A stretch of 64,000 bases of DNA from Clostridiales bacterium (GTDB taxonomy: Bacteria > Bacillota > Clostridia > Oscillospirales > Acutalibacteraceae): contig DUNU01000001.1 of the NCBI GenBank assembly GCA_012839185.1, forward strand, positions 1-64,000, given 5' to 3'. Below are positions 5,353 through 49,794 of the stretch, piece by piece. The first letter of the stretch is position 1, and each line of letters begins with the position of its first letter. The position numbers and the translations under genes were made by a program. The notes below the pieces were generated by a model, which searched no databases, had not been told where the DNA came from, and was given only the letters and a program-made list of their open reading frames with translations.

Positions 5353-5493
5353 ATAGGGAACAGACAAGGTGATTTATAAAAAATAATCTATCGACAGACG
5401 GCTATACGATTGCGATTTTTGACTGGTTTCATTGTATCAGTTATAATCACGACCGCAGGGAAGTCTGTGGTTTGTTTTTTCAGGAGGTATATT

Positions 5494-8400
5494 ATGAAGA
5501 AGGTATTTTTAAGAACCTTGTCATTGATTTTGTCAATGATAATGGTAATAACCGCCCTACAACTTGGCGGATTTGTCGGACTTTCGTTGTCCGATTTCTC
5601 ATTTCGTGCTGCCGCCGCGGAAATTCTTTATAACGGTGATTGCGGTGAAAATCTTAAATTCACGTTGGATGCAGACGGAGTTCTGACGATTTCGGGAACG
5701 GGAACTGCAGTTGGATTCTATGAAGGCAACGGGAACTGGAATCAAAGCTGGCAAACAGTCGAAAAATCGGGAACATACACCTATATAATGGACAGCATAA
5801 AGAAAATCGTAATTAAGGCTGAAAATCTGAAGGAGATTGGTGGAGAGGCATTCAGAAACTCTAAAATTACAGAATTTGATACGGGCAATATTGAGCGAAT
5901 AGATTACAGAGCCTTTGATTCCTGTTCGGAACTTAAGAGTTTTCATATCGGTTCGGCACTTATCTACGGTGCTTTCCCGTTTGTAGGGTGTTATGCACTT
6001 GAAAAACTCACAGTTGATAAAAACAATCCGTATTATTTCGCTGAGGGAAATTGCTTGGTACAACGTTACTACTTTGATTGGTCAACAGACTGCTTTGATG
6101 AAAGCAATGAAATCGATTCGGTTATTTGGGGTATAAAAACTTCTGTTATTCCTTCAATGGCAAAGCTGATTGCTAGCTATGCTTTTGCAGATTCCCAAAT
6201 TGAAAAAATTCATATTCCCGCGAATATTATGTACATATACTCGCTGGCTTTTTACAATGCTTTGAACAATGTAAAAAGTATTACCGTCGATGAAAAAAAT
6301 CCCGTTTACAAGGCAAAAGGGAATTGTCTTTACAACATTACATCAAGTTACGAAGGCTACTTTTTAGGTAACGAAAATACTCTTTTGTTCGGTTGCAAAA
6401 ATTCAGTTATTCCCGATGACGGAAGTATTACCCGAATCGGGCAGGAGGCTTTTAATCATTGCTCCGATTTGGAAAATCTTATCATTCCGAATACAATAAC
6501 AAGTATAGGCGGTTATGCGTTTCGAAATGCGGGATTGAAAACATTACATCTTCCCGCTTCTGTTGTTGAGGCAGACGTTTATTCATTCAGTTCAATGCCT
6601 TACCTTGAAAAGATAAGTGTCGATAAAAACAATCCTAAGTTTACAGCCTTGAGCAACTGTCTGATAAACAAAACAAAAAAAGAGATTGTATTAGGTTTTT
6701 CGAACAGTACAATTCCGACCGATCCCGATATTGTTACTTCGATCGGAGAGTATTCATTTTCTAATATTTCAGGGTTGAAGGAAATGGATATTCCCGAAAA
6801 CATAAATCGAATAGGTTTCTGTGCTTTTTATTTCTGCGGAGATCTTGAAACAATTAAATTTCATGACGGATTGATAGAAATCGGTGCGAATGCTTTTTAT
6901 GGGACAAAATGGTATGAAAATCAATCCGGCGATTATGTTTACGCAGGGAAAAATCTGCTCATGTTTAATAATTATGAGTCGAAGACGGTCGACAAAATAA
7001 AAAAAGGCACACTCAGCATCGCCTCATGTTGTTTTGATGGTAAGAATTTGCTTGAGAGTGTAACCATACCCGACAGCGTGCAGAGTATCGGGGGCTATGC
7101 TTTTGCCGGTTGTACTTCTCTTTCAACCGTTAAATTAGGGACGGGCTTAAAGCGGGCAGGCAGCAAAGTTTTTACAGATACTCCATGGTACGAAAACCAA
7201 CCCGACGGTTTGATTTATGCCGGGAAAGTGCTTTTAGGTTACAAAGGCGAGATGCCCGATAATTATGAATTGAACAAAATCAGAGACGACACGGTTGCGG
7301 TTGCGGACGAGGCATTTATATCGGTATTTACATTGAAATCTCTTACACTTCCCGAGTCCGTTGTATATGTCGGCGACATGGCTTTCTTTGACTGTTGGCC
7401 CGAGTCCGTTGTTGTCTTCAATCCCGACTGTGAGTTTTACGGCGAAGGATCTTTAAATACTGAAACGATTGTTGCTCCCGAAGGCGGTAAGGTGCAGGAT
7501 TATGCAGAAAATAACGAGATACGGTTTTATCCTTTAGTAGAAAAACCGCAAGTCATTTTCGATTTCTATGAAGGAGATTCCTGCAAAACCGGCGAATTTA
7601 TCAGTTTCAGTATTTCGGTTTTGGGCTTAAATGAGACAAAATCAGTTGTTTCAGGAAGTTTGAATTTTAACTATAATCCCGAATCTTTGCATTTGGAAGG
7701 TTACGATTTTTGCAACAGTTACAGGGAAGATGAAGAGCAGAATCGGCAAATTGAATTTGAAGTTGACGAAGACAAAGGAACGATCAGTTTTAATTTTGAT
7801 TACGGTCTCGAAACAAGCTATTATTTTGAACCGCTTGTTGAAGTTACATTTAGGGCAAAAAAAACCGGTTTAACCGAAATTGAAGCAGACGCTAAGTCGG
7901 TTATAAAAGATAAGAAAGGAAATATTATCAAAGCGGAATTTGCAAAAGCCGCCATAAGTATTCGTGAGGGCGTTTACAAAGACGTTTCTGTTGATGAATG
8001 GTTTGACACTACCGGAGAAAATGAAAACATCGACCTATTCAAGTTTACGCCGAAAGAGGACGGATACTATCGTTTCTACATAAAATCAGACATAGATTAT
8101 TACGGCGAGTTCTCTGTTTTTGACTCAGATTTCAATAATTTCTTACGAGTTTGTTACGAGACACCCGACGATGCCGAAAAGGGTGCGGTCTATGATTCTG
8201 TTGAGAACGAAGAATATTTTGAGGCAGGTAAAGTTTATTATATTGCTGATGACCTGCCCTGCCAAATTCGTATTTCCTTTATTAAAGTTCTTCCCACCGA
8301 GCCACCCACAGAGCCTCCCACAGAACCTCCCACCGAAAAACCCACAGAGAAACCCACAGAGAAACCCACCGAAAAGCCGACGGATAAATCGAATGAAGCA

Positions 8401-8835
8401 AAGAAGCCGGACTTTAGTAAACTTCCCGTTAAAACGCAAGAAAATAACGAAGTGTTGCTGATTTCGGATAGTTTAACCTCTAAACAGGTTAAAGAAACAC
8501 TTTCGGAATTTACCGTCAATATTCTTGATGTAAACGGCAACAAACTTGAAGATGATGCGGCAATCGGTACGGGAGCGGAAATTCAAATATATGACGGCGA
8601 AACACTTGTCGCGAAAAAAACGGTTATATTAAAGGGTGATCTTAACGGCGACGGAAAGGTTAAAACCACCGACGCACGAAACGCATTAAGAGGTGCATTG
8701 GGACTTGATAATTTAAGTGACGCTCAAATCCTCGCGGCCGACGTAAACAACGACGGTAAACTCAAAGCCACCGATGCACGAGCAATTTTACGAGGTGCAA
8801 TGGGGCTTGACGATACAGCCGCTTGGCTTGGTTGA
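5494..8835 (+). CDS. Secreted BspA-like LRR protein with cohesin-like domain and dockerin
   Basis: ATG 5494 follows AGGAGG by 6 nt; an upstream TTG in the same frame (5410) lacks a ribosome site. The product is 1114 aa. Residues 1-40 are a signal peptide. Residues 55-670 are LRR_5 (BspA/Treponema type) repeats, recognised by IxIPxxxxxIGxxAF, with interspersed KNNPxYxxxGNCL segments. Residues 688-822 resemble a cohesin fold (GEFISFSISVLG, LNFNYNPESL, VEVTFRAKKTG). Residues 830-930 resemble a PPC-type beta domain. A PTEPPTEKPTE linker (931-967), an X-like module and a two-repeat type I dockerin follow (GDLNGDGKVKTTDARNALRG and ADVNNDGKLKATDARAILRG). Dockerins bind cohesins of scaffoldins through calcium-loop residues, all of which are intact here. 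Having a cohesin-like and a dockerin domain in one chain would let it link other components; the cohesin call is from fold-like pattern only. Confidence 0.85.
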   Translation: MKKVFLRTLSLILSMIMVITALQLGGFVGLSLSDFSFRAAAAEILYNGDCGENLKFTLDADGVLTISGTGTAVGFYEGNGNWNQSWQTVEKSGTYTYIMDSIKKIVIKAENLKEIGGEAFRNSKITEFDTGNIERIDYRAFDSCSELKSFHIGSALIYGAFPFVGCYALEKLTVDKNNPYYFAEGNCLVQRYYFDWSTDCFDESNEIDSVIWGIKTSVIPSMAKLIASYAFADSQIEKIHIPANIMYIYSLAFYNALNNVKSITVDEKNPVYKAKGNCLYNITSSYEGYFLGNENTLLFGCKNSVIPDDGSITRIGQEAFNHCSDLENLIIPNTITSIGGYAFRNAGLKTLHLPASVVEADVYSFSSMPYLEKISVDKNNPKFTALSNCLINKTKKEIVLGFSNSTIPTDPDIVTSIGEYSFSNISGLKEMDIPENINRIGFCAFYFCGDLETIKFHDGLIEIGANAFYGTKWYENQSGDYVYAGKNLLMFNNYESKTVDKIKKGTLSIASCCFDGKNLLESVTIPDSVQSIGGYAFAGCTSLSTVKLGTGLKRAGSKVFTDTPWYENQPDGLIYAGKVLLGYKGEMPDNYELNKIRDDTVAVADEAFISVFTLKSLTLPESVVYVGDMAFFDCWPESVVVFNPDCEFYGEGSLNTETIVAPEGGKVQDYAENNEIRFYPLVEKPQVIFDFYEGDSCKTGEFISFSISVLGLNETKSVVSGSLNFNYNPESLHLEGYDFCNSYREDEEQNRQIEFEVDEDKGTISFNFDYGLETSYYFEPLVEVTFRAKKTGLTEIEADAKSVIKDKKGNIIKAEFAKAAISIREGVYKDVSVDEWFDTTGENENIDLFKFTPKEDGYYRFYIKSDIDYYGEFSVFDSDFNNFLRVCYETPDDAEKGAVYDSVENEEYFEAGKVYYIADDLPCQIRISFIKVLPTEPPTEPPTEPPTEKPTEKPTEKPTEKPTDKSNEAKKPDFSKLPVKTQENNEVLLISDSLTSKQVKETLSEFTVNILDVNGNKLEDDAAIGTGAEIQIYDGETLVAKKTVILKGDLNGDGKVKTTDARNALRGALGLDNLSDAQILAADVNNDGKLKATDARAILRGAMGLDDTAAWLG

Positions 8836-16927: not shown

Positions 16928-19264
16928 TTATCCGAGCCAAGTTTCCGTTTCGTCAAGTCCCATTGCACCTCTTAATATTGCTCGTGCGTCGGTGGCTTTG
17001 AGCTTGCCGTCGTTGTTTACGTCAGCGGCGAGGATTTGAGCATCACTTAAATTATCAAGCCCTAAAGCACCTCTTAATGCATTTCGTGCGTCGGTTGTCT
17101 TGATTTTCCCGTCGCCGTTGATGTCCCCTTTGAATACAACTGTTTTTTTCTCGATAAAGTTATCGCCATCATATATTTCAATCAAACAACCCGTACCGAT
17201 TGCATTTTCATTACCAAGTTGATTTTTATCAGCATCAATTATTTTGACGATAAATTCGTTGAGAGCCTCTTTAACCTGACCGACGGTTAATTCCTTGGCA
17301 ATATTAAGATACTCACCAATTATTTTAACCTTAACGGGAAGCTTGTTATAATCTAAAATCTTTGCTTCCGTTGGTTTCTCGGTGGGAGCCTCAGTAGGCT
17401 TTTCCGTAGGTTTTTCAGTCGGTGCCTCTGTGGGCTTTTCTGTTGGTATTTCTGTTGGTTTTTCGGCGGGAATGAAGTTATAGTGCATAGTTACGGTTGA
17501 ACCGAAATCATACAGATTTCTGTGTATCCACTCATCTTCCGTTCCGGTATAATAAACATCGGTCAATCCCGTACAACCGTTAAATGCTTCATTAAAAATT
17601 ATCGTTACGGAAGCCGGAATGACAATTTCGGTCAGTCCCGTGCAACCGGAAAACGCACTTTCTCCGATATGGGTAACAGCATCCGGAATTGTGATTTCGG
17701 TCAGTCCTGTACAATCCATGAAAGCCCTGTGCCCGATTTCTGTTACGGAATCCGGTATGGTGATTTTGGTCAGACCGGTACAACGCAAGAAAGTAAGCAT
17801 GTCAATTACCGTCACGGAATCAGGAATTGAAATCTCAGTTAAACCGGTACAATCATAAAACGCAGCAACCCCTATTTTCGTTACGGAATCTGGTATGGTG
17901 ATTTCGGTCAATCCCGTACAACCTTTGAAAGCATCGTCCGCAATCATTGTTACAGAATTCGGGATGGCACTGTTTTTGCACCCTAAAATCAGTAAATTTG
18001 TTTCTTTTTCAATCAGACAATTTCCGGAAGAATAATATTTTGCATTATTTTTGTCAACATCAATAGAGCCAAGCCCCGAACAACCGCCGAATGCGCCTGT
18101 CCGAATTTCCGTTACCGACTCCGGAATTGAAATTTCGGTTAGACCGGTACAACCTTCAAAGGCACGCACGTCGATGATTTTTGTAAAATTCGGGATAATA
18201 CTGTTTTTACATCCGAGTATCAGTGTAGCTGTTCCTTTTTCTATTATACAATTTCCGGACGAATGATACTTTGTATTATTCTCGTCAACCGTAACGGATT
18301 CAAGTCCTGAACAACCGATAAATGCAAACTCGGCGATTTCCGTTACCGACTTGGGAATTGTGATTTCGGTCAGACCCCTACAATCGGCAAATGCAAATTC
18401 CTCAATTTTTGTTACGGAATTCGGAATGACACTGTTTTTACATCCTGCTATCAATCTGTTTGTCCCTTTTTCAATCAGACAATTTCCGGAAGAATAATAA
18501 TTTTCATTGTCTTTGTCAACCTTTATGTATTCCAGTGCCGGACAACTTCTGAATGCACTTGAACCGATGAACGCAACCGAAGCCGATATTTCAATATCGG
18601 TCAGACCTTTACAATCGCCAAACGCTTCGGGACCTATGCTCACAACTGAGTCCGGAATTGTGATTCCGGTCAGGTCGGTGCATTCGATGAATGCACTGCC
18701 TGCAATTGTTTTTGTTCCGTCTTTGATTGTATATGTATGCGGCAATTTATTGCTGTCAGCCGCCAATAAATGCTTGCCGTTATACAATAAACCATCTGCT
18801 GTTCTGTTTAATTCATTTTCATAATAAGGCGTAGCAAAGAATACGAAAGCACCTATGCGTGTTACGGAGTCCGGTATAGTGATTTTTTCAAGCCTTGAAC
18901 AACTTTCAAACGCACTGTCCTCAATGATTGTGACAGAATCAGGAATTATTATTTCAGTCAGTTCCGAACAGCCGAAAAATGCAAATTGACAAATTGTTGT
19001 TACCGAATCGGGAATAATGATTTCAATCAGATCGGTACAATTATCAAACGCCCCTCCCCCGATCGTCGTTACAAAATTACCGCTCAATGTTTTAGGAATT
19101 TCAATCTTGCCACTGACAGATTCATCACAGTCGGTTATTGTAACTGTACCGTCCGTGACTTCATAAGTCAGATAACCTTCTGTTTCTGCAGTTACGGTCA
19201 AAGCAAACGGCAAAGCCGTGATAAACATTGCAAGCACCATTAAAACTGATAACAATTTTTTCAT
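16928..19264 (-). CDS. Secreted BspA-like LRR protein with dockerin
   Basis: 778 aa, ribosome site AAGGAG. Signal peptide about 1-27 (LLSVLMVLAMFITALPFALTVTA). Residues 40-590 are BspA-type LRR_5 repeats with the unit GCTGLTEITIPDSVTxIxxxAF, interrupted by four SSGNCLIEKxTxxLIxGCKNS segments. A PTEKPTEAPTE linker (about 615-650) and an X-like module lead to a dockerin (GDINGDGKIKTTDARNALRG and ADVNNDGKLKATDARAILRG). The dockerin is almost identical to that of the 5494 gene, including most synonymous positions, so the cassette has been copied or homogenised recently. There is no cohesin-like domain here. BspA-type repeats are linked with adhesion in other bacteria; the role here is not known. 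Confidence 0.88.
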   Translation of the reverse strand: MKKLLSVLMVLAMFITALPFALTVTAETEGYLTYEVTDGTVTITDCDESVSGKIEIPKTLSGNFVTTIGGGAFDNCTDLIEIIIPDSVTTICQFAFFGCSELTEIIIPDSVTIIEDSAFESCSRLEKITIPDSVTRIGAFVFFATPYYENELNRTADGLLYNGKHLLAADSNKLPHTYTIKDGTKTIAGSAFIECTDLTGITIPDSVVSIGPEAFGDCKGLTDIEISASVAFIGSSAFRSCPALEYIKVDKDNENYYSSGNCLIEKGTNRLIAGCKNSVIPNSVTKIEEFAFADCRGLTEITIPKSVTEIAEFAFIGCSGLESVTVDENNTKYHSSGNCIIEKGTATLILGCKNSIIPNFTKIIDVRAFEGCTGLTEISIPESVTEIRTGAFGGCSGLGSIDVDKNNAKYYSSGNCLIEKETNLLILGCKNSAIPNSVTMIADDAFKGCTGLTEITIPDSVTKIGVAAFYDCTGLTEISIPDSVTVIDMLTFLRCTGLTKITIPDSVTEIGHRAFMDCTGLTEITIPDAVTHIGESAFSGCTGLTEIVIPASVTIIFNEAFNGCTGLTDVYYTGTEDEWIHRNLYDFGSTVTMHYNFIPAEKPTEIPTEKPTEAPTEKPTEKPTEAPTEKPTEAKILDYNKLPVKVKIIGEYLNIAKELTVGQVKEALNEFIVKIIDADKNQLGNENAIGTGCLIEIYDGDNFIEKKTVVFKGDINGDGKIKTTDARNALRGALGLDNLSDAQILAADVNNDGKLKATDARAILRGAMGLDETETWLG

Positions 19265-25948: not shown

Positions 25949-28900
25949 TCATAATGTATTCATAATAGCAAGCAAGCGTTGATAACTGTCCACAGCACTG
26001 TATTTTACTTTGCTGGTTGAAACATCATTAAAGAGTTTTTTAGCAAAATCAATTTTATTCTGTTCGATAGGTCTGATGTTTAAACTATCCATTGTGCCTT
26101 TTGTTTCTGCAACAAAGAAAATGTGTTTTACAGTTCCTTCATGGAAAGCAATTGCCCAGTCGGGAGAATAATTACCGACAGGGGTAGGAATATGAAATCC
26201 TCTTGGAAGTTTTGCATATACACAAACTTCACTGGCGGCATCCAAATCCTGTGCAAATTTCCTTTCAATGCTTTCTTCGGCTGTACCGTCTGTAAAGACA
26301 TAGTCCTGAATCGCTTTTTCAGCCTTAAACGCTTTATCAAAGCTTTGAGAACTCTTTTCAACAGTAAAGATTGAGCTGTCATATTCACCTTCAATACGGT
26401 TATAAGTAATATGCTCTACCATCATGGTTGCTTTTTGTTCGTTAATCAATTTTGTAACTTTGGAAATAAATTCTTCAGGATTGTTCTTAAACATATAAAG
26501 CGTATCTTGTCGCAATCCTTTAAGAATTGCTGCAACCGTCTTGCGTGTTAAAACAGTTCCATCTGCGACTTTTCCGATAAGATCATATTTAATTTGACTT
26601 GTCTGTGCATGTTTTAATGATTTAGTTCTTGTTTTTTCTTCACCAAAAGATGCTCCACGCTCAACCTCATATTCATCCATCTCAGCTTTCTGACGGCCAA
26701 CAGTAGCCGTATATTGCAATTCCGAAACAAATAATTTTTCGTTGATATGCTCAATTGACTTTTTAATCAATTCCTCGCTGTCAAATTCAACCGTATAAGC
26801 ATATTTATGATTGATTTGCTTCCACAGTTCTTGGAATTCTTTTTTAGCCCAATTGTCATTAAGCGGGTTATCTTTTACCTTTGTTTCGTGTCCGTTAATG
26901 AACATATCATCAAGAACTTTATCGTCATATATTGCCTGAACAAGGGTGTGAATTCCTTCAGCCATAGGCTCTAATTCTTCCGGAAGTTTTGCAACCGTCC
27001 CCATAGCTACATCAGTTCGATATTTATCTGTTACTTTACGTTTAAAATCCACATAACCGTTTTGAATGAGATAAAACTCAATTGCACCGGCAGTATCTTC
27101 ATCAATAGGCGTAGGTATATCATTAACCTTAACATACTTCCCTTGGAAATATTCTTTTGTTGCAACAGTCGGTCTGTCATAGAGAGCCGTTTTGATATCC
27201 GCCTGCAAATCAGAAACAAAGCCTTTATAACTTTCACTTGCGATAACAGTAAGCATATTTATATCATGAATTGTATCTCCGCAGGTTTCGACATCCATAC
27301 GATTACCGGCTTGATTTACGCACAAACGAAGCCCGCGACCGACTTCTTGGCGTTTTGTAGTTTGACTGTTGGAGTGTTTCAAAGTACAAATTTGGAACAC
27401 ATTTGGATTATCCCAACCTTCACGAAGTGCAGAGTGAGAGAAAATAAATCTTGTCGGCTCGTTGAAAGAAAGCAAGCGTTCCTTATTTTTCAAAATAAGT
27501 TCATACGCTGAAATATCATCAGAAAATTCACTGCCACGCTTTGTGCTGCTGTCAATACTTCTGCCGGTTTTCTTATCAATACTGAAATATCCCTTATGCA
27601 CCGCACCTATATCACTGCAAGTAGATTTCAGATACTTCTGATACGGCGTATCAAAGATTTTAGTATAGTCGTTAAGAATATTCAAATATTCCTGCTCGAA
27701 CATTACACCGTACTCGCCCAACAATTCATCGCCGTTTTCATCATATTGACGATATTTAGCGACTTCATCAATGAAAAACAGGGAAAGGCATTTAATACCC
27801 TTATTGTAAAGTTCTTCTTCCTTTTCAAAGTGAGACAGGATGGTTTCTCTTATCTGAATTCTACGCATATCCTTTTCGGATATATCGCCCACAACATCTC
27901 CGGATTTTATTACTTCACCATTTGTAAAAGTTACCGTCCCGTTAATCGGGTCAATCTCAGATATAGTATATCCTCTGTACTGTCCCATTTCCTGAGAAAT
28001 ATAATATAAATCATCACCAACACCGAGAATACGGGTTTCTCGGTTGATTGATTTTTTATATCCGATTTCCAATTCAATGCGAGCCATAGGAGGTTTCTTG
28101 CTTGAAAGTATAATCTCCTCAAGGTAAAGATAACTGTCCGTACCCCTGAAATTCTTTACTTCAAATCCCTTAACCTCAATCTTTTTGACTAATTTTTTGT
28201 TATATGCGTCGAGAGCATCCAGAACATAAACAAGGTTATTTTGTTTTGCGTGAGTGGCGGAATAGTTCAGAGTGAAAAGCGGATTAAGGTTTTGTAAAGC
28301 TGTTTGTGTAACCGCACCGCCCATTTTTTGCGGTTCATCAAGAATTATAATCGGTCTGTTCGCTTTAATAACATCAATCGGTCTGCGGGAACCAAATTCA
28401 TCACGCTTTGAGTTAATGATAAGGGCTTTCTTGCTTCGTCCATCCTCTTTAAGGGAAGAAGCAAAAGCCTGCGTATTGATAATCATTACATTTATACCGG
28501 AACTTGATGAGAAATTATCAAGTTGAGTTAAGTTGGAACTGTTATATATAAAGAAACGTGCCTTTTTCCCGTAATGTTCCATAAAATGTTCTTGCGTCAT
28601 CTCAAAAGATTTTTTTACACCTTCACGGATGGCAATACTCGGCACAACAACGATAAACTTACTCCAACCATAACTTTTGTTAAGTTCAAACATTGTCTTG
28701 ATATATACATATGTTTTTCCCGTACCGGTTTCCATTTCAATATCAAGACTACATCTTCCCAAATCTTTTACAAGAGAAGATGAACGTTTTATATTATTTC
28801 GGTCTTGCAAAGCATGAATATTTTTTAATAGTTGTTCATCGGAAAGCTCAACAAGTTCATTCTTATATCCGGTATCAGCGAAAAGGTTATCTATATCGAC

Positions 28901-29065
28901 GTCTTGATCAGAAAAACTTGTTTCTTCAAATGAGACTCCCGCTTTTGTTTTACCGATGTCACGGATATAACTGATTTTATCTTGAAAGCGTTGTCCGTTA
29001 AATACCTTTACAACTGCATCAACTGCGTCTGTTTGATATTGATGAATCTTAAAATTAAACTTCAA
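25949..29065 (-). CDS. res: Type III restriction enzyme Res subunit (helicase-nuclease)
   Basis: 1038 aa. In type III systems Res is the ATP-dependent translocase and endonuclease that cuts unmodified DNA with Mod. Walker A METGTGKTY near 115, DEPQ box (IILDEPQKMGG), NYSATH, helicase motif VI in TTKRQEVGRGLRL. The C-terminal nuclease has SPDWAIAF and FVAETKG near 970-990, fitting PD-(D/E)xK. The start MKFNFKIHQYQTDAVDAV is the usual Res N-terminus, but its codon is TTG (29065), an in-frame TGA lies three codons upstream, and no Shine-Dalgarno is visible because a heptamer repeat tract runs up to the start. Same strand and presumed operon with mod, DUF4391 and the helicase upstream, but 348 bp separate it from mod. 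Confidence 0.88.
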   Translation of the reverse strand: MKFNFKIHQYQTDAVDAVVKVFNGQRFQDKISYIRDIGKTKAGVSFEETSFSDQDVDIDNLFADTGYKNELVELSDEQLLKNIHALQDRNNIKRSSSLVKDLGRCSLDIEMETGTGKTYVYIKTMFELNKSYGWSKFIVVVPSIAIREGVKKSFEMTQEHFMEHYGKKARFFIYNSSNLTQLDNFSSSSGINVMIINTQAFASSLKEDGRSKKALIINSKRDEFGSRRPIDVIKANRPIIILDEPQKMGGAVTQTALQNLNPLFTLNYSATHAKQNNLVYVLDALDAYNKKLVKKIEVKGFEVKNFRGTDSYLYLEEIILSSKKPPMARIELEIGYKKSINRETRILGVGDDLYYISQEMGQYRGYTISEIDPINGTVTFTNGEVIKSGDVVGDISEKDMRRIQIRETILSHFEKEEELYNKGIKCLSLFFIDEVAKYRQYDENGDELLGEYGVMFEQEYLNILNDYTKIFDTPYQKYLKSTCSDIGAVHKGYFSIDKKTGRSIDSSTKRGSEFSDDISAYELILKNKERLLSFNEPTRFIFSHSALREGWDNPNVFQICTLKHSNSQTTKRQEVGRGLRLCVNQAGNRMDVETCGDTIHDINMLTVIASESYKGFVSDLQADIKTALYDRPTVATKEYFQGKYVKVNDIPTPIDEDTAGAIEFYLIQNGYVDFKRKVTDKYRTDVAMGTVAKLPEELEPMAEGIHTLVQAIYDDKVLDDMFINGHETKVKDNPLNDNWAKKEFQELWKQINHKYAYTVEFDSEELIKKSIEHINEKLFVSELQYTATVGRQKAEMDEYEVERGASFGEEKTRTKSLKHAQTSQIKYDLIGKVADGTVLTRKTVAAILKGLRQDTLYMFKNNPEEFISKVTKLINEQKATMMVEHITYNRIEGEYDSSIFTVEKSSQSFDKAFKAEKAIQDYVFTDGTAEESIERKFAQDLDAASEVCVYAKLPRGFHIPTPVGNYSPDWAIAFHEGTVKHIFFVAETKGTMDSLNIRPIEQNKIDFAKKLFNDVSTSKVKYSAVDSYQRLLAIMNTL

Positions 29066-29410
29066 TTCAATTCATAATTCACAGTTAATAATTCACAATT
29101 CACAATTCACAATTCATAATTCATAATTAATGATAGTTACGCTCTTTCCATTTTATTCAAGGAAATTATCTATTTTTCTCTTCAATTATGAATTATGCAT
29201 CATGCATTATAAATTATGCATTATAAGCAATTATGCATTATGAATTAACCATTATGCATTAACCATTATGCATTAATAACTATGAATTACTCTCCCTCCT
29301 TTTCATTTTGTTCAAGCAACTTATTTATTTTTCTATTCAATTATGCATTATGCATTATAAATTATGCATTATAAGCAATTATGCATTATGAATTATGAAT
29401 TATGCATTAA
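29066..29410. repeat. Heptanucleotide repeat tract between mod and res
   Basis: The tract is made of 7-bp units. The left part (29072-29130) reads AATTCAC or AATTCAT on the plus strand. The right part (about 29183-29256 and 29337-29408) reads AATTATG or CATTATG, the reverse orientation of the same type, so the halves could pair. Within it, a unit of about 110 bp is duplicated with an offset of 148-155 bp (29141-29248 and 29289-29395). No gene is seen. Confidence 0.9.
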
Positions 29411-29413
29411 AGC

Positions 29414-31372
29414 TCACATCACCTTTCTTACAGTACTCGGGCTAAAGGTCGCAAAAATCTGCTCAAAGTTGGTTGCAACGCTGTCGCTTGCCATTGAACT
29501 GTCACGCATAACGAAATAATAAGGTTTTTTCTTGGCAATTTCCTTAACAACCTCATCCGTTACATCATTGTCAAAACAAGCAATCAGATAATTGTCCTCA
29601 ACACTGAACACCTTTTTACCTGCAATGTTTGTTTCCTCAATTTTGCTTGAAAGCAGCACACCCAAATCAAGCATAACCTGGAACAACAAATCTTCCGGCG
29701 TTCTGTCCTCTTTGATATTATCAGGATCTAAATCAAAAAGGCTGTCCGGATAATCATCGGGAGTATAATAAACATCTTTCATATTGGAAGTATCACATTT
29801 TAATACACGGAACCCGCCGTCAAACTTTGCCTCCGGATTATCTTCTGCAATTTTCTTTGCCGCTCTGCGAATACGCTCTTTTCCAATTTCGCATATATTT
29901 TTATATCCCGCTTTATATGCTTCAGATTTTTCGTCCGTCTGTTCGGGTAACTGCACCATAATAAATTTACGATTTCCGCCGTCTTCCGCATTAAGTTGCA
30001 TTACTGCATGGGCGGTGGTGGCAGAACCGGAGAAGAAGTCGAGCACATAGGAATCTTCATTCTTGTCAACAAGTGAAACGAGATATTTAATAAGTTCTGT
30101 GGGTTTTGCAAAGTCGAACGGAATATCTAAATCCTTTAATTCCTGCGAGCTAATTCTATTTTCCCATTTCGTAATTAAATCAACCGGAACTCTGCCTTCG
30201 TCAAGTCTGTCAGACAGCCAAATTTTGGTATAAATATTCCACTTGGACTGATTTCCATTCTCGTCAACCAAAGATGAAGTATTTGTTTGCTTAAATAAGA
30301 TGTTGTTGTTCTTTAGTTCTTGAAGAAGTCTATCTGCTGACCATCTCCATACACCGTCTCCATCTTGCGGAAGAACACGAGAACCAGTAAATTTTTCAGA
30401 AGGGAATGTTTTGCCTTGGGGAATAGCGAAGCTTCCATCGGGACATTGAATCCAATATCTTTGATTTGGTCTTGCATCCAATCCTGCTTGATACAAACCC
30501 ATTGTCCTGTATTTTTGACCAGCTCTTTCTCCAGAAGTCTCAACTTGGTTATATACTTTAGCAATAAGCTCAGCTGATATAGGTTCTCTAAAGTAGCCCA
30601 AGGAGTTGATGTTCTTAGCGTAAACCAAAATGTATTCCATATTAGGAGAGAAATACATTCCTTTATTGCCACCGCTTTTCATCATTCTCGAAATTATACC
30701 CACCCTATTTGCTTCGCTAAATATATCATCACAACATTTAATTAAATTGTGATTCTCTGCTTTTCCAATACTTATAAAGATAACTCCATTATCACTTAAC
30801 AAATCTTTTGCTAACTTTAATCTCGGATATATCATATTCAGCCAATCGGTATGAAAACGACCGTTGCTGTCAAGATTTTTTACAAGTCGGTTGCCCTCAT
30901 CGTCAAACTGTCCGCTGTTTTCAAGATATTCATCCGTGCTTTGAGCAAAGTTATCTTCATATACAAAATCATTTCCCGTATTGTAAGGCGGGTCAATATA
31001 AATCATTTTGATTTTGCCGAGATATGTTTCCTGCAATAACTTCAATACCTCAAGATTATCCCCCTCAATATAGAGGTTTTCGGTATTGTCAAAATCAACG
31101 CTTTCTTCTCTGCAAGGACGAAGCGTTTTGCTTATCGGTGCATTGGCAAGAAGTACCGACTTTTTCTTGTCGGGCCAGGTAAATTGATAACGCTCTTCAT
31201 TACCGTCAACAACTTTGCAGGAAATCTCCTGCATAAGTATATCTTTATCAATGGCACGGACTAACTCGCCGTTTTCATCAATCGTCTCTGTAACGGCATT
31301 GGGGAACATAGCCGCCAATTTCAGAAAGTTCTCATCAGCCTTATTCGCCGTTTGCATTTTCAGTTTATCCAT
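29414..31372 (-). CDS. mod: Type III DNA adenine methyltransferase Mod subunit
   Basis: About 652 aa from ATG 31372, chosen over an ATG 27 bp upstream because GGAGG precedes it properly. Methyltransferase of beta class: motif IV DPPYNTGNDFVY near 124 comes before motif I DFFSGSATTAHAVMQL near 442. The region between them would carry target recognition. Mod methylates adenine in a short asymmetric site, alone protects the host and with Res restricts foreign DNA. Its start overlaps the DUF4391 stop by 8 bp. The following res is separated by the repeat tract, which is unusual because Mod and Res normally need balanced expression. Confidence 0.92.
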   Translation of the reverse strand: MDKLKMQTANKADENFLKLAAMFPNAVTETIDENGELVRAIDKDILMQEISCKVVDGNEERYQFTWPDKKKSVLLANAPISKTLRPCREESVDFDNTENLYIEGDNLEVLKLLQETYLGKIKMIYIDPPYNTGNDFVYEDNFAQSTDEYLENSGQFDDEGNRLVKNLDSNGRFHTDWLNMIYPRLKLAKDLLSDNGVIFISIGKAENHNLIKCCDDIFSEANRVGIISRMMKSGGNKGMYFSPNMEYILVYAKNINSLGYFREPISAELIAKVYNQVETSGERAGQKYRTMGLYQAGLDARPNQRYWIQCPDGSFAIPQGKTFPSEKFTGSRVLPQDGDGVWRWSADRLLQELKNNNILFKQTNTSSLVDENGNQSKWNIYTKIWLSDRLDEGRVPVDLITKWENRISSQELKDLDIPFDFAKPTELIKYLVSLVDKNEDSYVLDFFSGSATTAHAVMQLNAEDGGNRKFIMVQLPEQTDEKSEAYKAGYKNICEIGKERIRRAAKKIAEDNPEAKFDGGFRVLKCDTSNMKDVYYTPDDYPDSLFDLDPDNIKEDRTPEDLLFQVMLDLGVLLSSKIEETNIAGKKVFSVEDNYLIACFDNDVTDEVVKEIAKKKPYYFVMRDSSMASDSVATNFEQIFATFSPSTVRKVM

Positions 31373-31979
31373 TATAAGTTTCCTCCAATTCCTTTTCAAG
31401 TTTCTTTACTTCCTGAGCAAGTGAAAATTTCTTTTTCGGCTGTTTCTCCGCTCGTGCAAGTTTTTCAAGTCTGTCAATTTCTCTTTGTAGTTTCTTTCGC
31501 CGTTCGTTAAGAATGATTTGTTCATCAAGGGAGTTGCCTTGTTCAATATTAAAACCGCCTATCTGAACAATAATATTTTCCCAGACGACATCAAGATTTA
31601 AGCCTTTAAGTTCAAGGGTTAAAGCATCTTTCGGATACCATTCTGTTTGTAAAAGTTTATTGCGATAGGTCGCAAGTTTCGCCTCGTTCTCATATTCCAA
31701 AACCATTACCATATTCTGTGGTATCAGTTTTGAAAGATTGATAATATTCTTCTCATCAAAATCTTTGCGTTTGAGGAGTACCGACATCACAAAGAAAGAC
31801 TTGACCTTTGTGCCTTCAAGCAAATTGGCTTTTGTTGCCGATACTTCATTGACGATATAGATACGGGAAATATCTCTGTCAACTCGCTCTTTGGCAGCCG
31901 TATTCATCCGGAATTTTGAATATATCGCATTTTTCGGTAGCAGTTTGTTCAATTCAGTGGATTTTGGCAGTCCGAGCAT
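31365..31979 (-). CDS. DUF4391-type accessory protein
   Basis: 204 aa, ribosome site GAGGTGAG. N-terminal alpha/beta region (LPKSTELNKLLPKNAIYSKF, ISRIYIVNEVSATKANLLEG) resembling DUF4391, with FFVMSVLLKRKDF and MVMVLEYENEAKLATYRNKL; the last 50 residues form a charged coiled coil (RRKKLQREIDRLEKL, AQEVKKLEKELEET). It overlaps mod by 8 bp and lies 9 bp after the helicase gene, so the three are co-translated. DUF4391 proteins are found beside SNF2-like helicases and type III methylases; I know of no assigned biochemical role. The coiled coil suggests that it joins the helicase or Mod in a complex (inference). Confidence 0.75.
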   Translation of the reverse strand: MLGLPKSTELNKLLPKNAIYSKFRMNTAAKERVDRDISRIYIVNEVSATKANLLEGTKVKSFFVMSVLLKRKDFDEKNIINLSKLIPQNMVMVLEYENEAKLATYRNKLLQTEWYPKDALTLELKGLNLDVVWENIIVQIGGFNIEQGNSLDEQIILNERRKKLQREIDRLEKLARAEKQPKKKFSLAQEVKKLEKELEETYNG

Positions 31980-31988
31980 TATCTCACC

Positions 31989-34900
31989 TCATCTCACTAC
32001 TAAGAAACAAATAAGCTCAAAGTCGTCTAAGCCTTTAATTGCGTTATCTATGAAACTGACATGTCCGCCACCTAAAAAATTGTCAATATCACTTTCGTTT
32101 TTGACCTTGATAATTGACGCAATAGCATCTCCGAGCAGTGATGAATACACGCTCATATTTTTGCCGTCTTGGGTTGCTTTGTTAAATTCACGATAAAGTT
32201 CGGGTATCGCTTCGGTCTTGCCTTTACAAAGAAAACGCATTTTATCAAGCATTTGTTTCGGTGAAAGATGATCGCAGATAACCTCTCTGTCTTTTGTGAT
32301 ATAGACCATATAGAATGGATGTAACCTGTTTTGATTATCAATATTCACACTGTTAAAACGGTTTTTCAAAACATAGATGACACCTACGGGAGTATCTTCT
32401 GAGGCGGGAGCAACAGAATGAAGTCCATACGGCGTTTTGTCAATATCCGGATTGTTCTTGACATATTCAAGCAAATCAAGCCGAAATTCATTAAGTCCCA
32501 GATCCATAATGGAAATACCGGTAGTCATTTCTTCAATATCAACAACTTCTTCTTGTAACCGCATAAGTTGAGATTTACGATATTCAAGATCTGTCTTTTC
32601 TTCGTCATTGAGAATGTTGTCATCACCGGTAGCCGTCAAATCAACTATCTTCATTCGCGTCTCCACTCTTGCTTTCAAGTTGATATATTCATCAAGCGTT
32701 ACATCGGGCCAGAAGTTTACAAGTTGGATAACCGCATTTTTACTGCCGATACGATCTATACGACCAAATCTCTGTATGATACGTACGGGATTCCAATGAA
32801 TGTCATAATTGATAAGATAATCACAGTCCTGCAAGTTCTGACCTTCGGAAATACAGTCGGTAGCAATTAACAAATCAATGTTTGTGTTATCGTTTGGCAT
32901 TAACAAGTGCTTGTCTTTTGATAAGGGCGAAAAACATGTCAACACCGCATTCAAATCATTGGGAAGTTTGGAAACTGTGGAGCGACCTTCAACCGAACCG
33001 GTAACCATTGCGGTATCAAGTCCGAAATTGGATTTTACATACTTGCTGACATTATCGTACAAGTAATCAGCCGTATCAGTGAATGCCGTAAAAATGATGA
33101 TTTTTTTGTTCCCGTCATTTATCGGGTTTTCTGTTTTATCTTTGATAACACGGAAAAGTTCTTGTAATTTAGAGTCATATTCAGGTGTAATATCACCGAC
33201 CATAAGGGATAAAAGCTCAAGTATTTCAGCGTCTTTGACAAGACTGTTTCGCCAGGATATATAATCCATATCCGCAATGTCTATCTTAACTTTCTTGCCG
33301 AAAGAAAAGAGATCATCATCGTTTTGATCATCTTCATCAAAATCATCAACATTCGTAATGTCTGTCAATTCAAGCCTCACGGATGAACTTCTGTCGTAAG
33401 AATCAATCACATTGATGGTGTCTTCAATCAAGTTTTTAATTCTGTTCAATGTAAGATTAAATGAGAATACAGAACTTTCCATACGTTTCATCAGATTGAT
33501 TGCCATAAGTCGCCTTATTCCGCGTTCACGGTTTGCCTGAGTGAAACCGATGTTTATCATGTTATCATCATATATCTTGGCATACTTTTCCATTTTGCTT
33601 GGCAAAATAAAGTGTGACGGCGTATAGATTGTAAGATTCAAAAGCATCAACTGTTCGAAAATTTCGTTATAGTTGATTGCTTCCTTCAAGTTTGTAAGCG
33701 GCGGTCTTAATGAAATCGGTTTTAGTCTCTTCGGGAAAGTGCCGATGTCTGTTGTGTCGTAATACTTTTGAATATGCTTTCTTGAACGAGCAATTGTAAC
33801 AGCATCTAATACCTCAAAGAAATCAAAATCTAACATCTTCAAAAGGTTTTCAGTTGTTCTGTCGCAAAGCTCAAATTCACTCCACGTATTGAATGCTCTT
33901 TGGGCAAATTTAAATATATCATCAATGGAATGAGAGGTGTTAAGTTTATTGTCAATATAATCAGTATGACCTTCATAAGCCAGTGCCAGTTGGTTTTTAA
34001 GGTCAAGGAATCTGTTATTAACCGGCGTTGCAGATAACATCAGAACTTTGGTTTTTACGCCCTGACGGATAACTTTGTTAAGAAGTTTTAAGTATCTGTT
34101 TTCTTTCTCTTCATCATCTTTGGATGTTAGTTTTCCTCCATTGCGGAAGTTATGCGATTCATCAATAACCACAAGGTCGTAGTTTCCCCAATTCAATCTG
34201 TCTAAATCAAGCCCGTTTGATTTGCCGCGAGTTCGGCTCAGGTCTGTATGATACAGAACATCATAACGCAACCGGTCTGACGCAATGGGGTTATTTACAT
34301 AATTATCTTTGAATGTGTTCCAGTTGTTGCTGAGCTTTTTGGGACACAGAACAAGTGCAGATTTATTTCTGTTTTCATAATATTTGATAACGGCAAGAGC
34401 AGTAAAAGTTTTACCAAGACCTACGCTGTCCGCTAAAATGCAACCATTGTATTTTTCAAGTTTATTTATTATTGCAAGAGCGGCGTCCTTTTGGAAGTTA
34501 TATAGCATATTCCAGATTTTGCTATCCTTGAATCCCGTAGCCTCATTTGGCAAAACATCTTCGGAAATATCTTCAAGAAATTCGTTAAAAATGTTGTATA
34601 GAGTAACAAAATAAATGAAATCCGGCGAATTTTCGTTATATGCAGTTGTGATGTTTTCAATAACCTCATCTGTTACTTCCTGAACGACTTTTTTGTCATT
34701 CCATATTTCATTGAAATCTTGGATTAAAGACTTTGCCAAAGAAGTGTCCTTAACAATGGTAGAGCTGATCACATTGCCTTTTTCGCAACCAAGTTCAATT
34801 GTAGTAAAATTGTTGATTGGTGTATAGCCCATGTCGTCAACGACCATTTGCCCTTGAATTGATTTATCGCTAACATTGGACTTGAATGTAACCTTTTCTT

Positions 34901-35225
34901 TAATCCATTCCGCGCATTCTCTTGCAATTGCTTTTTGAGTCAATTCATTTCTCAGTTTTAATTCGAACTCTGTACCATAAAGACTTTTTTCACGATTAAG
35001 ACGTGGGATATAAAATTCTCTTTTTTCTTTCTTGGCTTTTTCAGTAATAAATGTCGGGGAAGTAAATATAAAACGCAGTTCATCTATATTTTCTAATTCT
35101 TCTTTTAATTCTTGAAAAGCATAAATAGAAAAGCAAGCTGCTGCGATAGACAGTTTGCTTCCCTTTTTTATTTCTACGGACAGATCGTCACGCAACGTTT
35201 TGTTTACATTATTTATAATCTCCAT
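31989..35225 (-). CDS. SNF2-like helicase with PLD-like N-terminus, defence-associated
   Basis: 1078 aa, ribosome site AGGAG. Residues 1-180 resemble a phospholipase-D-like domain (AAACFSIYAFQELKEEL, LRFIFTSPTF), but the place expected for the HxK motif reads GQMVVDD, so it may be inactive as a nuclease. Superfamily 2 motor: Walker A DSVGLGKTFTALAV near 266, VIDESHNFRNGG near 352, LMLSATPVNN, and QRFGRIDRIGS near 820. The ATPase would translocate on duplex DNA. First gene of a four-gene operon behind a perfect consensus promoter. The same pairing of a PLD/SNF2 helicase with a methylase recalls DISARM, but the DISARM genes drmA, drmB and drmC are absent. Confidence 0.85.
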   Translation of the reverse strand: MEIINNVNKTLRDDLSVEIKKGSKLSIAAACFSIYAFQELKEELENIDELRFIFTSPTFITEKAKKEKREFYIPRLNREKSLYGTEFELKLRNELTQKAIARECAEWIKEKVTFKSNVSDKSIQGQMVVDDMGYTPINNFTTIELGCEKGNVISSTIVKDTSLAKSLIQDFNEIWNDKKVVQEVTDEVIENITTAYNENSPDFIYFVTLYNIFNEFLEDISEDVLPNEATGFKDSKIWNMLYNFQKDAALAIINKLEKYNGCILADSVGLGKTFTALAVIKYYENRNKSALVLCPKKLSNNWNTFKDNYVNNPIASDRLRYDVLYHTDLSRTRGKSNGLDLDRLNWGNYDLVVIDESHNFRNGGKLTSKDDEEKENRYLKLLNKVIRQGVKTKVLMLSATPVNNRFLDLKNQLALAYEGHTDYIDNKLNTSHSIDDIFKFAQRAFNTWSEFELCDRTTENLLKMLDFDFFEVLDAVTIARSRKHIQKYYDTTDIGTFPKRLKPISLRPPLTNLKEAINYNEIFEQLMLLNLTIYTPSHFILPSKMEKYAKIYDDNMINIGFTQANRERGIRRLMAINLMKRMESSVFSFNLTLNRIKNLIEDTINVIDSYDRSSSVRLELTDITNVDDFDEDDQNDDDLFSFGKKVKIDIADMDYISWRNSLVKDAEILELLSLMVGDITPEYDSKLQELFRVIKDKTENPINDGNKKIIIFTAFTDTADYLYDNVSKYVKSNFGLDTAMVTGSVEGRSTVSKLPNDLNAVLTCFSPLSKDKHLLMPNDNTNIDLLIATDCISEGQNLQDCDYLINYDIHWNPVRIIQRFGRIDRIGSKNAVIQLVNFWPDVTLDEYINLKARVETRMKIVDLTATGDDNILNDEEKTDLEYRKSQLMRLQEEVVDIEEMTTGISIMDLGLNEFRLDLLEYVKNNPDIDKTPYGLHSVAPASEDTPVGVIYVLKNRFNSVNIDNQNRLHPFYMVYITKDREVICDHLSPKQMLDKMRFLCKGKTEAIPELYREFNKATQDGKNMSVYSSLLGDAIASIIKVKNESDIDNFLGGGHVSFIDNAIKGLDDFELICFLVVR

Positions 35226-40374: not shown

Positions 40375-40463
40375 GACTGTTGCTCTGTTCCGCTCGTTCT
40401 TCAAATCCCTAACAGTATGAGTAAAAAAACATAACCGATAACTAAACTATCGGTTATATTTGT
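40375..40463 (-). repeat. tRNA-Ser tail element, copy A (truncated)
   Basis: Read on the minus strand, it continues directly after copy B with the same terminator hairpin (ATAACCGATA/TATCGGTTAT plus T run) and the same core start (GGGATTTGAAGAACGAGCGG). The similarity ends within the next hairpin at 40375. Confidence 0.9.
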
Positions 40464-40626
40464 TGGCGGAGAGCATGGGATTTGACTCGCACGACCTCGA
40501 CGGTCGTTTGGTCGCTCGCGGTCACAACAGTCCACCGGACTATTGCTCTGTTCCGCTCGTTCTTCAAATCCCTCACAGTATGAGTAAAAAAACATAACCG
40601 ATAACTAAACTATCGGTTATATTTGT
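40464..40626 (-). repeat. tRNA-Ser tail element, copy B (complete, 163 bp)
   Basis: Begins right after the CCA of tRNA-Ser(GGA): terminator hairpin, structured core, then a 22-bp copy of the host tRNA's own 3' end (40464-40485, identical to 40627-40648). The core differs from copy C at only about four positions, while the tail matches the GGA tRNA rather than the GCT tRNA. Confidence 0.92.
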
Positions 40627-40717
40627 TGGCGGAGAGCATGGGATTTGAACCCACGAAACCTGTTACGGTTTACACGATTTCCAATCGTGCTCCTTCGGCC
40701 AGCTCGGACAACTCTCC
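40627..40717 (-). tRNA. tRNA-Ser (GGA)
   Basis: 91 nt with encoded CCA, long variable arm of class II. Acceptor GGAGAGT pairs with GCTCTCC; anticodon stem-loop CGATTGGAAATCG with anticodon GGA. Lies downstream of rpmA on the same strand; its 3' end abuts element copy B. Confidence 0.95.
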
Positions 40718-41999: not shown

Positions 42000-42090
42000 G
42001 GAGAAGTACCCAAGAGGCCGAAGGGGCTCCCCTGCTAAGGGAGTAGTATGGGAAACCGTAGCGAGGGTTCAAATCCCTCCTTCTCCGCCA
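42000..42090 (+). tRNA. tRNA-Ser (GCT)
   Basis: 91 nt with CCA. Acceptor GGAGAAG pairs with CTTCTCC; anticodon loop CTGCTAA with anticodon GCT; variable arm TATGGGAAACCGTA. Its last 22 nt are repeated exactly at 42233-42254. Confidence 0.95.
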
Positions 42091-42254
42091 ACAAATATAA
42101 CCGATAGTTTAGTTTATCGGTTATGTTTTTTTACTCATACTGTGAGGGATTTGAAGAACGAGCGGAACAGAGCAACAGTCCGGTGGACTGTTGTGACCGC
42201 GAGCGACCAAGCGACCGTCGAGGTCGTACGAGTCAAATCCCTCCTTCTCCGCCA
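42091..42254 (+). repeat. tRNA-Ser tail element, copy C (complete, 164 bp)
   Basis: Order: terminator hairpin ATAACCGATA/TATCGGTTAT with seven T (about 42096-42132); core; 22-bp copy of the GCT tRNA 3' end (42233-42254). Core pairings: GAGGGATTTGA (42144-42154) with TCAAATCCCTC (42233-42243); GCGG (42162-42165) with CCGC (42197-42200); CAACAGTCC (42173-42181) with GGACTGTTG (42185-42193); CGACC (42212-42216) with GGTCG (42222-42226). Confidence 0.92.
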
Positions 42255-42258
42255 TATA

Positions 42259-42297
42259 AGCAACTGATAGTTGAGTTATATCGGTTGTTTATTTTTT
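42259..42297 (+). terminator. Terminator beyond copy C
   Basis: CAACTGATA pairs with TATCGGTTG (one G-U), followed by TTTATTTTTT. It may be the original terminator of tRNA-Ser(GCT), pushed away by the element. The rest of 42298-42483 holds only an AACGCC/GGCGTT hairpin (42339-42360). Confidence 0.8.
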
Positions 42298-48591: not shown

Positions 48592-49794
48592 ATGAAAAAA
48601 AGTATCCGGAAAATTATTGCGTTGTTGCTTTCGTGTATGCTTGTATTTTCAAGTGTTACGTTAAGTGCTTCGGCAGCCGACTGGCTTGATATTATCGGAG
48701 GTCTTTTCGGCGGAAATACATCAGCAGGAAACATTGACTTTATTCGTCTTTTCTTGCAGGCTATTAATAAGATTACAACTGAAGAAGACGATAAACCTGC
48801 ATATATAGACCGTTCACGAGGTTCTAAAGAAATTACCGCACAAAAACTTGCCGAATATCAGGAATATGTAAAAGATTTCAACAAAAATGTCAATCTTATT
48901 AAAAAGAAATGTCCTGCATTTGACAGAATTGAAATGGCGGGGCTTCCTGTTGAGGCTTCGGTAGGGGCACAGATAGGAGACAAAACTGATTTAATTGGCT
49001 CTCTTATTTCTATCGGAACAGGATTGCTTTTCGGCAGTGATAATGTCATAAATATCAGCAACGCAATAACAGCTATGGGTATTGATACTCTCTTTTCTGA
49101 AAAACGAGAAAGCGAAATTGAACTGGGTCAGGTATGTGATAATCTTATTTCTGTTAAAGGTACGAATTTTGTATCAAATCTTACAGCGGATGATTTTTGT
49201 GATATTGACTATACCGCATCACGCTATGGCGGATATGTTATGAAAGGTTATTTGTGGGATCAGATAAATCCCGATGCTGCATCGGCACAAGGCAGGGTAT
49301 TTGATCTTCTTGATGATGTAAAATTCTTCTCAATGTTGAAGTCTTATACGGGGAATATGGATTTATCGTTCCTTCAATTTAAGTATGTTGATTGCTATGT
49401 GGAGCTTAAAGTAAATAAGATGGGCGATGTTCAATCCTATACCACTCACTATAAATGTGTTCTCCATGTTGATGAAAGTGCTGATACAGCCAATATAGGT
49501 CAATATTTAGGCTTTAGCGATACAGTTCTTTATGAAAGCGAAATAATTTACAAGAACTTTAAGTGGAAAAACTGGCTTATCGGGGACGTAAACGGAGATT
49601 TAGACATTAGTGTTATTGATGCAAGATATTGCCTTCGTGCAGCATTAGGTCTTGAAATTGTACCTGAAGGAAGTGCTAAATACAGATTCTGTGATGCAAA
49701 TCAAGATGGTAAACTGACAGTCGTTGATGCAAGAAAAATTCTTCGTACTGCGTTGGGTCTTGACACCATAGTCCAACCGCTTGATAACGTTTAG
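48592..49794 (+). CDS. Secreted dockerin protein of unknown function
   Basis: 400 aa. Signal peptide about 1-28 (IIALLLSCMLVFSSVTLSASA). Residues 30-325 are not recognised: a helical segment (ITAQKLAEYQEYVKDFNKNV), a GS-rich hydrophobic segment (LIGSLISIGTGLLFGSD), then a mixed alpha/beta part (DFCDIDYTASRYGGYVMKGY). Residues 332-395 are a dockerin: GDVNGDLDISVIDARYCLRA and CDANQDGKLTVVDARKILRT. The first calcium loop ends in LDIS, less canonical. It is only distantly similar to the other two dockerins of the window. Starts 4 bp after mfd, so it is probably co-transcribed with pth-mfd; a terminator follows. Confidence 0.8.
   Translation: MKKSIRKIIALLLSCMLVFSSVTLSASAADWLDIIGGLFGGNTSAGNIDFIRLFLQAINKITTEEDDKPAYIDRSRGSKEITAQKLAEYQEYVKDFNKNVNLIKKKCPAFDRIEMAGLPVEASVGAQIGDKTDLIGSLISIGTGLLFGSDNVINISNAITAMGIDTLFSEKRESEIELGQVCDNLISVKGTNFVSNLTADDFCDIDYTASRYGGYVMKGYLWDQINPDAASAQGRVFDLLDDVKFFSMLKSYTGNMDLSFLQFKYVDCYVELKVNKMGDVQSYTTHYKCVLHVDESADTANIGQYLGFSDTVLYESEIIYKNFKWKNWLIGDVNGDLDISVIDARYCLRAALGLEIVPEGSAKYRFCDANQDGKLTVVDARKILRTALGLDTIVQPLDNV

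Follow-up and report, generated by a model that had tools for sequence, protein, structure and literature searches.

The folded segment behind the tRNA-Ser(GCT) gene of the window (by which we mean the whole 64,000-nucleotide stretch of Clostridiales bacterium DNA under analysis) is one member of a family of palindromic elements, about 100–170 bases long, that in gut Clostridia lie directly behind tRNA genes of many kinds. In general the end of the tRNA is followed by a terminator, then by the local T-arm in inverted copy (P1L), then by a hairpin core, and last by a tail that directly repeats the local tRNA 3' end. What began as a single odd fold is thus replaced by a family with a rule, namely that both ends are rewritten from the host tRNA. 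We give an even chance to the view that these are small palindromic DNA repeats that spread behind tRNA genes by template-switch copying at the universal T-loop. No description of such a family was found in the literature searched, and Rfam, at gathering and at relaxed thresholds alike, returned tRNA only, plus unrelated sub-threshold matches.

The unit behind tRNA-Ser(GCT), here called copy A, is set out in Table 1 with its relatives in the same genome. The nested pairings that had been proposed for its core in an initial annotation, made from the letters alone, are all found at the places given for them: the outer helix joins GAGGGATTTGA (P1L) to TCAAATCCCTC at 42233–42243, P2 joins GCGG (42162–42165) to CCGC (42197–42200), P4 is a 9-bp hairpin of CAACAGTCC (42173–42181) and GGACTGTTG (42185–42193) around a GGT loop, and P5 joins CGACC (42212–42216) to GGTCG (42222–42226). 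The minimum-energy fold of 42144–42254 is exactly this structure, at −46.2 kcal/mol (z −3.86), with none of 200 shuffled sequences as stable. The second covariance model described below (R2) matches copy A at 42144–42215 (E 2.4e-4). Copy B takes up a similar structure with a shortened outer helix (z −2.61, 2 of 200 shuffles as stable), and its C-to-T change, as the same annotation had it, places a T opposite an unchanged G, so that pairing is kept.

Table 1. Coordinates of the units, their host genes and flanking features (window positions, except for the last row).
Feature	Position	Strand	Basis
tRNA-Ser(GCT), host gene of copy A	42000..42090	+	ARAGORN and Rfam RF00005
Terminator 1 of copy A: hairpin and T run, between tRNA and core	42091..42132	+	sequence, inverted repeat
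P1L: inverted copy of T-loop and T-stem 3' half of tRNA-Ser(GCT)	42144..42154	+	exact reverse complement
Core: P2, P4 hairpin, conserved linker, P5 hairpin	42155..42232	+	fold, alignment, R2 match
Tail / P1R (TCAAATCCCTCCTTCTCCGCCA): direct copy of the last 22 nt of tRNA-Ser(GCT)	42233..42254	+	identical to 42069–42090
Terminator-like hairpin 3' of the tail	42255..42297	+	sequence
tRNA-Ser(GGA), host gene of copy B	40627..40717	-	ARAGORN and Rfam RF00005
Copy B: terminator 1, GCT-type P1L, core, GGA-type tail (40464–40485)	40464..40626	-	95% identical to copy A
Copy C: truncated tandem unit, breaks off inside the P4 9-bp hairpin	40375..40463	-	98% identical to copy A positions 1–90
Second core family, loci L377, L385, L388, L393, L397	contigs C14, C9, C7, C18, C9 		

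The outer strand had also been said to be complementary to the T-arm of the tRNA, and this too is borne out: GAGGGATTTGAA is an exact 12-nt reverse complement of the tRNA-Ser(GCT) T-arm at 42068–42079, and such complementarity is general at most sites of the family. Because both arms are copied from the local tRNA 3' end, it is a by-product of the general architecture. A conserved multi-helix fold and T-arm complementarity thus recur at many loci, while the further suggestion of a structured RNA that could compete with tRNA folding on read-through is conjectural. The hairpin that follows the tail is probably the tRNA's own terminator, displaced, and is read in this way because such displacement is seen directly at an orthologous tRNA-Arg site. 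Copy B, on the other strand, has mixed ends: its tail comes from the local tRNA-Ser(GGA), whereas the P1L has kept the sequence of tRNA-Ser(GCT). Only 9 of 11 positions of its outer arm pair, since the tail of tRNA-Ser(GGA) reads CCCAT and the left arm is still GAGGG.

Complete units stand at about 11 of the 44 tRNA genes of this genome, several of them in tandem, and represent at least two unrelated core families; RF00005 itself has 46 matches here, including two broken Gly copies. Further hosts of the layout are Gln(CTG), Gly(GCC) (twice) and Gly(CCC); at Gly(CCC) the core lies within the T-loop of two broken tRNA copies upstream of an intact tRNA. Most of the other tRNA genes were scanned without a model, which gave five more complete units (Thr-GGT, Gln-TTG, Leu-TAA, Leu-TAG and Leu-CAA) and one with P1L only, and it is these that carry the second, unrelated core family. 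Its core runs ACGCAT, hairpin, conserved linker GCGTTATAAATARGA, hairpin; the ends are again derived from the tRNA, and as many as three units form an array. Outside this genome, its linker motif GCGTTATAAATARGA occurs in a single other genome (G038), apparently within coding sequence.

The wider distribution was followed with two covariance models, the first built from six cores of this genome and R2 from 20 cores. Because both were trained on the core alone, the ends of the elements they find are independent evidence. Homologues to the first model occur in 11 of the 59 genera examined, its own included. Within the order, R2 has matches in 37 of 247 genomes; run at a stricter threshold on 343 genomes drawn from the class, it has them in 11. 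These genomes are mostly metagenome assemblies, and their contigs often stop at the repeats. A tRNA or tmRNA gene lies on the same strand within 300 nt upstream of 80 of the 126 distinct elements, and on the other side of 6, in counts made without phylogenetic weighting; the genes preceding matched elements are of 29 types. In other gut Clostridia, close relatives of the window core itself stand behind tRNAs for Met, Leu, Ser and Pro.

At the 65 closest sites the ends follow the adjoining tRNA. P1L matches the reverse complement of the 3' part of its own tRNA over 10.75 nt on average, compared with 6.08 nt (maximum 6.7) when tRNAs are shuffled among sites 200 times, and the tail matches the local 3' end over 14.1 nt, compared with 5.6 nt (maximum 6.3) in the same control. 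The tail begins sharply at T55/C56 of the T-loop and ends at A76. Tandem units are frequent. At one locus (L197), a unit behind tRNA-Ser(GGA), around position 144 of the minus strand, carries a local P1L and a tail from a different tRNA; this may be where recombination joined two tRNA loci.

The structure holds up and is conserved. Covariation among homologues, which the initial annotation had named as the check on its fold, is strong in the alignments and above background. Among 25 wider homologues, double changes occur at 21 of 24 pairs; the share of cells that pair is 95%, which drops to 73% on shuffling and to 34–44% when the sequences are slid. This alignment was fitted to the covariance model and hence leans towards it. 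The window subtype (8 homologues, behind seven tRNA genes) was aligned by MAFFT, fitted to no structure; here double changes fall at 10 of 29 pairs, and 97.8% pair as opposed to 30–40% when slid. Within this set P2 is invariant, and the P4 hairpin varies at two pairs only. Covariation alone is no proof of an RNA, since DNA template switching can make compensatory changes in one step, as PMC8794818 describes; that paper, PMC8604942 and PMC7202029 likewise report that template switching can create and maintain RNA hairpins and homogenise the arms of inverted repeats.

The proportion of wobble pairs also bears on this question. When hairpins were picked with G-U and A-C opposites scored alike, the element stems (119 hairpins, 993 pairs) held 15 G-U (1.5%) and 5 A-C, tRNA stems at the loci studied (1848 pairs) held 150 G-U (8.1%) and 11 A-C, and the terminator hairpins between tRNA and core (920 pairs) held 58 G-U (6.3%) and 7 A-C. 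G-U is thus roughly one-fifth as frequent in the element helices as in genuine RNA helices of these loci, which favors a DNA-level palindrome rather than an RNA gene. Near-perfect Watson-Crick stems with many double changes are the outcome that would be expected of DNA template switching; an RNA under ordinary selection would be expected to show more G-U.

These numbers bear on the strongest of the other explanations, in which the core is a structured small RNA, transcribed by read-through or together with the tRNA and cut out by tRNA-processing enzymes in the manner of RtT, the E. coli RNA discussed below. We regard this as rather unlikely, and find similarly doubtful its more specific form, in which P1 would mimic the T-arm/acceptor helix with its CCA end and the RNA would titrate processing enzymes or anneal to pre-tRNA. 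The elements lie mostly on the tRNA strand, their covariation is strong, and E. coli RtT, an annotated sRNA, has the same layout. Moreover, some copies (L052, L054, L117 and L122) sit between the tRNA genes of operons with no terminator and would, from their position, be expected to be transcribed. The G-U count also exceeds that of A-C within the element stems (15 vs 5, p 0.02), an asymmetry that could possibly reflect selection or a role on the transcribed strand. Against an RNA, however, stand the overall scarcity of G-U, the intrinsic terminator that separates tRNA from core in most copies, and the rapid gain and loss of the elements.

Gain and loss could be followed at a tRNA-Arg(CCG) gene of another genus, which was compared because the tRNA-Ser of the window locus is absent from all orthologous loci fetched in a search of 35 relatives, leaving no empty site there. 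Three species of that one genus are filled at the orthologous position, each with a different core type, and six sites (L319, L322, L324, L325, L327 and L328) are empty, with the tRNA followed by a terminator or plain flank; the other tRNA-Arg(CCG) orthologues run into a contig edge at the tRNA or close to it. The occupancy comparison is of one tRNA. The sequence after the tail at one filled site (L317) resembles the terminator of the empty L324, so that terminator 1, P1L and core were inserted and the native terminator displaced. On this comparison the insertion point was the tRNA 3' end, and the outcome an intact tRNA with a new terminator. Copy number within the genus ranges from 0 to 14. 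The spacers before and after the unit are alike at 20 of 53 sites, as is expected of tandem growth. A second occupancy comparison, with the genome G217, matched mainly repeat copies and short stretches. Between related species the elements are gained and lost in the manner of very small mobile DNA. The jump itself was observed at no site, and only A to B forms a donor-recipient pair near enough to trace; the exact moving unit is uncertain, because terminator 1 is different at most sites of one genome.

Such a pattern recalls site-specific integration, and the units might be minimal integrative elements for which a phage or island supplies, in trans, a tyrosine recombinase that targets tRNA genes; the C56–A76 copies would then be attL and attR. 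The sharp direct repeat from T55/C56 to the tRNA end would fit, as would a restored tRNA with a displaced native terminator, and some elements do lie next to prophages in which an integrase-like ORF adjoins a displaced tRNA 3' half. We nevertheless judge this explanation distinctly unlikely. The 100–170 bp units hold no integrase and spurious ORFs only, about 30 different tRNA ends would all have to be substrates of a single enzyme, terminators differ among the units of one genome, and an inverted copy of the host T-arm is unexpected from site-specific integration. A RAYT/REPIN-like system, in which a Y1 transposase would mobilise the hairpin as a REP-type sequence, is very improbable: the short hairpin AACAGTCCGGTGGACTGTT does occur in many non-tRNA contexts and in other phyla, but Y1_Tnp (PF01797) has no match in this genome and shows no association with the elements (15 of 37 element-bearing genomes vs 96 of 247 overall), and ends taken from the local tRNA are not a REPIN feature.

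In the template-switch mechanism, which we infer from the architecture, the hairpins and the palindrome would stall replication and so provoke template switching. The nascent strand would leave after CCA for another copy of the element, copy its terminator and core, and return at the universal T-loop (GGTTCRANYCC), which would yield a local tail. P1L would later be corrected to the local tRNA by template switching of the same quasi-palindromic kind, and copy B could then have jumped recently from copy A and stand between these two steps, its P1L still uncorrected. With the tRNA end restored and a terminator supplied, the element might persist as near-neutral selfish DNA. A weak point of this scheme is the first switch, at CCA, which has only a few bases of homology. 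Conserved linkers and the conserved P4 loop sequence also hint at a protein or RNA partner that reads the element, which counts against the scheme.

The closest known architecture is that of the E. coli tyrT/tyrV repeats (RtT/RttR RNA, RF00391), in which units likewise stand in tandem behind a tRNA gene; besides a hairpin core, each holds the tRNA 3' half in inverted form (GGGGAAGGAT) and the 3' end in direct copy (ATCCTTCCCCCACCACCA). The RtT core is present in 4692 of 5426 E. coli genomes. RtT was seen here at tRNA-Tyr only, whereas the present elements occur at about 30 tRNA types with ends that change accordingly and, unlike RtT repeats, usually follow an intrinsic terminator. The Rfam RtT model matched none of seven loci, the window region included (cmscan, E up to 5), and R2 found no match at the E. 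coli tyrT locus. As neither model finds the other, we would file the elements as sequences that may work like the tyrT/rtT repeats, and not as members of RtT. Somewhat short of an even likelihood, in our estimation, is the broader proposal that both belong to an unnamed class of gene-free mobile DNA, with no dedicated enzyme and with homology at the T-loop as its landing site, whose palindromic cores would provoke template switching in replication and whose ends would be rebuilt at every insertion from the new host tRNA; E. coli tyrT/rtT would be another instance.

Other known systems are alike in part. REP and REPIN sequences are also short intergenic palindromes with near-perfect hairpins and several copies per genome, but the present elements do not depend on a RAYT, are fixed behind tRNA genes, and have ends copied from tRNA. 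Phages and islands that target tRNA genes insert at the 3' half, duplicate it and leave the tRNA intact, and the direct repeat of the tRNA 3' end on both sides is present here as in such integrating elements; the units described here, however, are of about 100–170 bp, gene-free, equipped with an inverted T-arm copy, and found at any tRNA. Several prophage-like viral contigs (L413, L414, L416, L419 and L420) carry a displaced tRNA 3' half with an element directly after it, and in L414 and L416 an integrase-like ORF lies just upstream of that half. To judge from these contigs, tRNA-targeting phages and the repeats may have attachment regions in common. The structured-RNA candidates from gut metagenomes in PMC8040213 are likewise covarying and palindromic and come from gut bacteria, but the available excerpt of that source describes no class tied to tRNA genes.

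The rule of locally rewritten ends suggests how DNA without genes can settle at the most conserved genes and do them no harm, and it opens the origin of the E. coli tyrT repeats to testing. It also holds a warning for structured-RNA surveys, in that strong covariation in palindromic repeats can stem from DNA template switching; low G-U content offers a simple diagnostic.

The hairpin alone is not diagnostic of the family, since a scan with the bare hairpin gave mostly non-tRNA palindromes, with only 16 of 84 matches behind a tRNA. The multi-copy matches in genomes G118 and G158 (L092–L105) were rejected as a different, non-tRNA repeat in which R2 picks up the shared hairpin. The hairpin AACAGTCCGGTGGACTGTT occurs in a non-tRNA intergenic palindrome of this genome (L014, C7:173520), in non-tRNA repeats of Ruminococcus-like genomes (L092–L105 and many of L153–L232), and in Algoriphagus, Galbibacter, Treponema and others, a range that suggests a widespread hairpin module.

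Elsewhere in the window, upstream of tRNA-Trp and tRNA-Met, the minus strand at 25949–35225 carries three large ORFs whose products resemble a type III restriction subunit, a DNA methyltransferase and a SNF2-type helicase. Putative secreted proteins are encoded at 5410–8835, 16928–19264 and 48592–49794, with dockerin-like repeats (GDINGDGKIKTTDARNALRGALG) at their ends, as recognised by eye.
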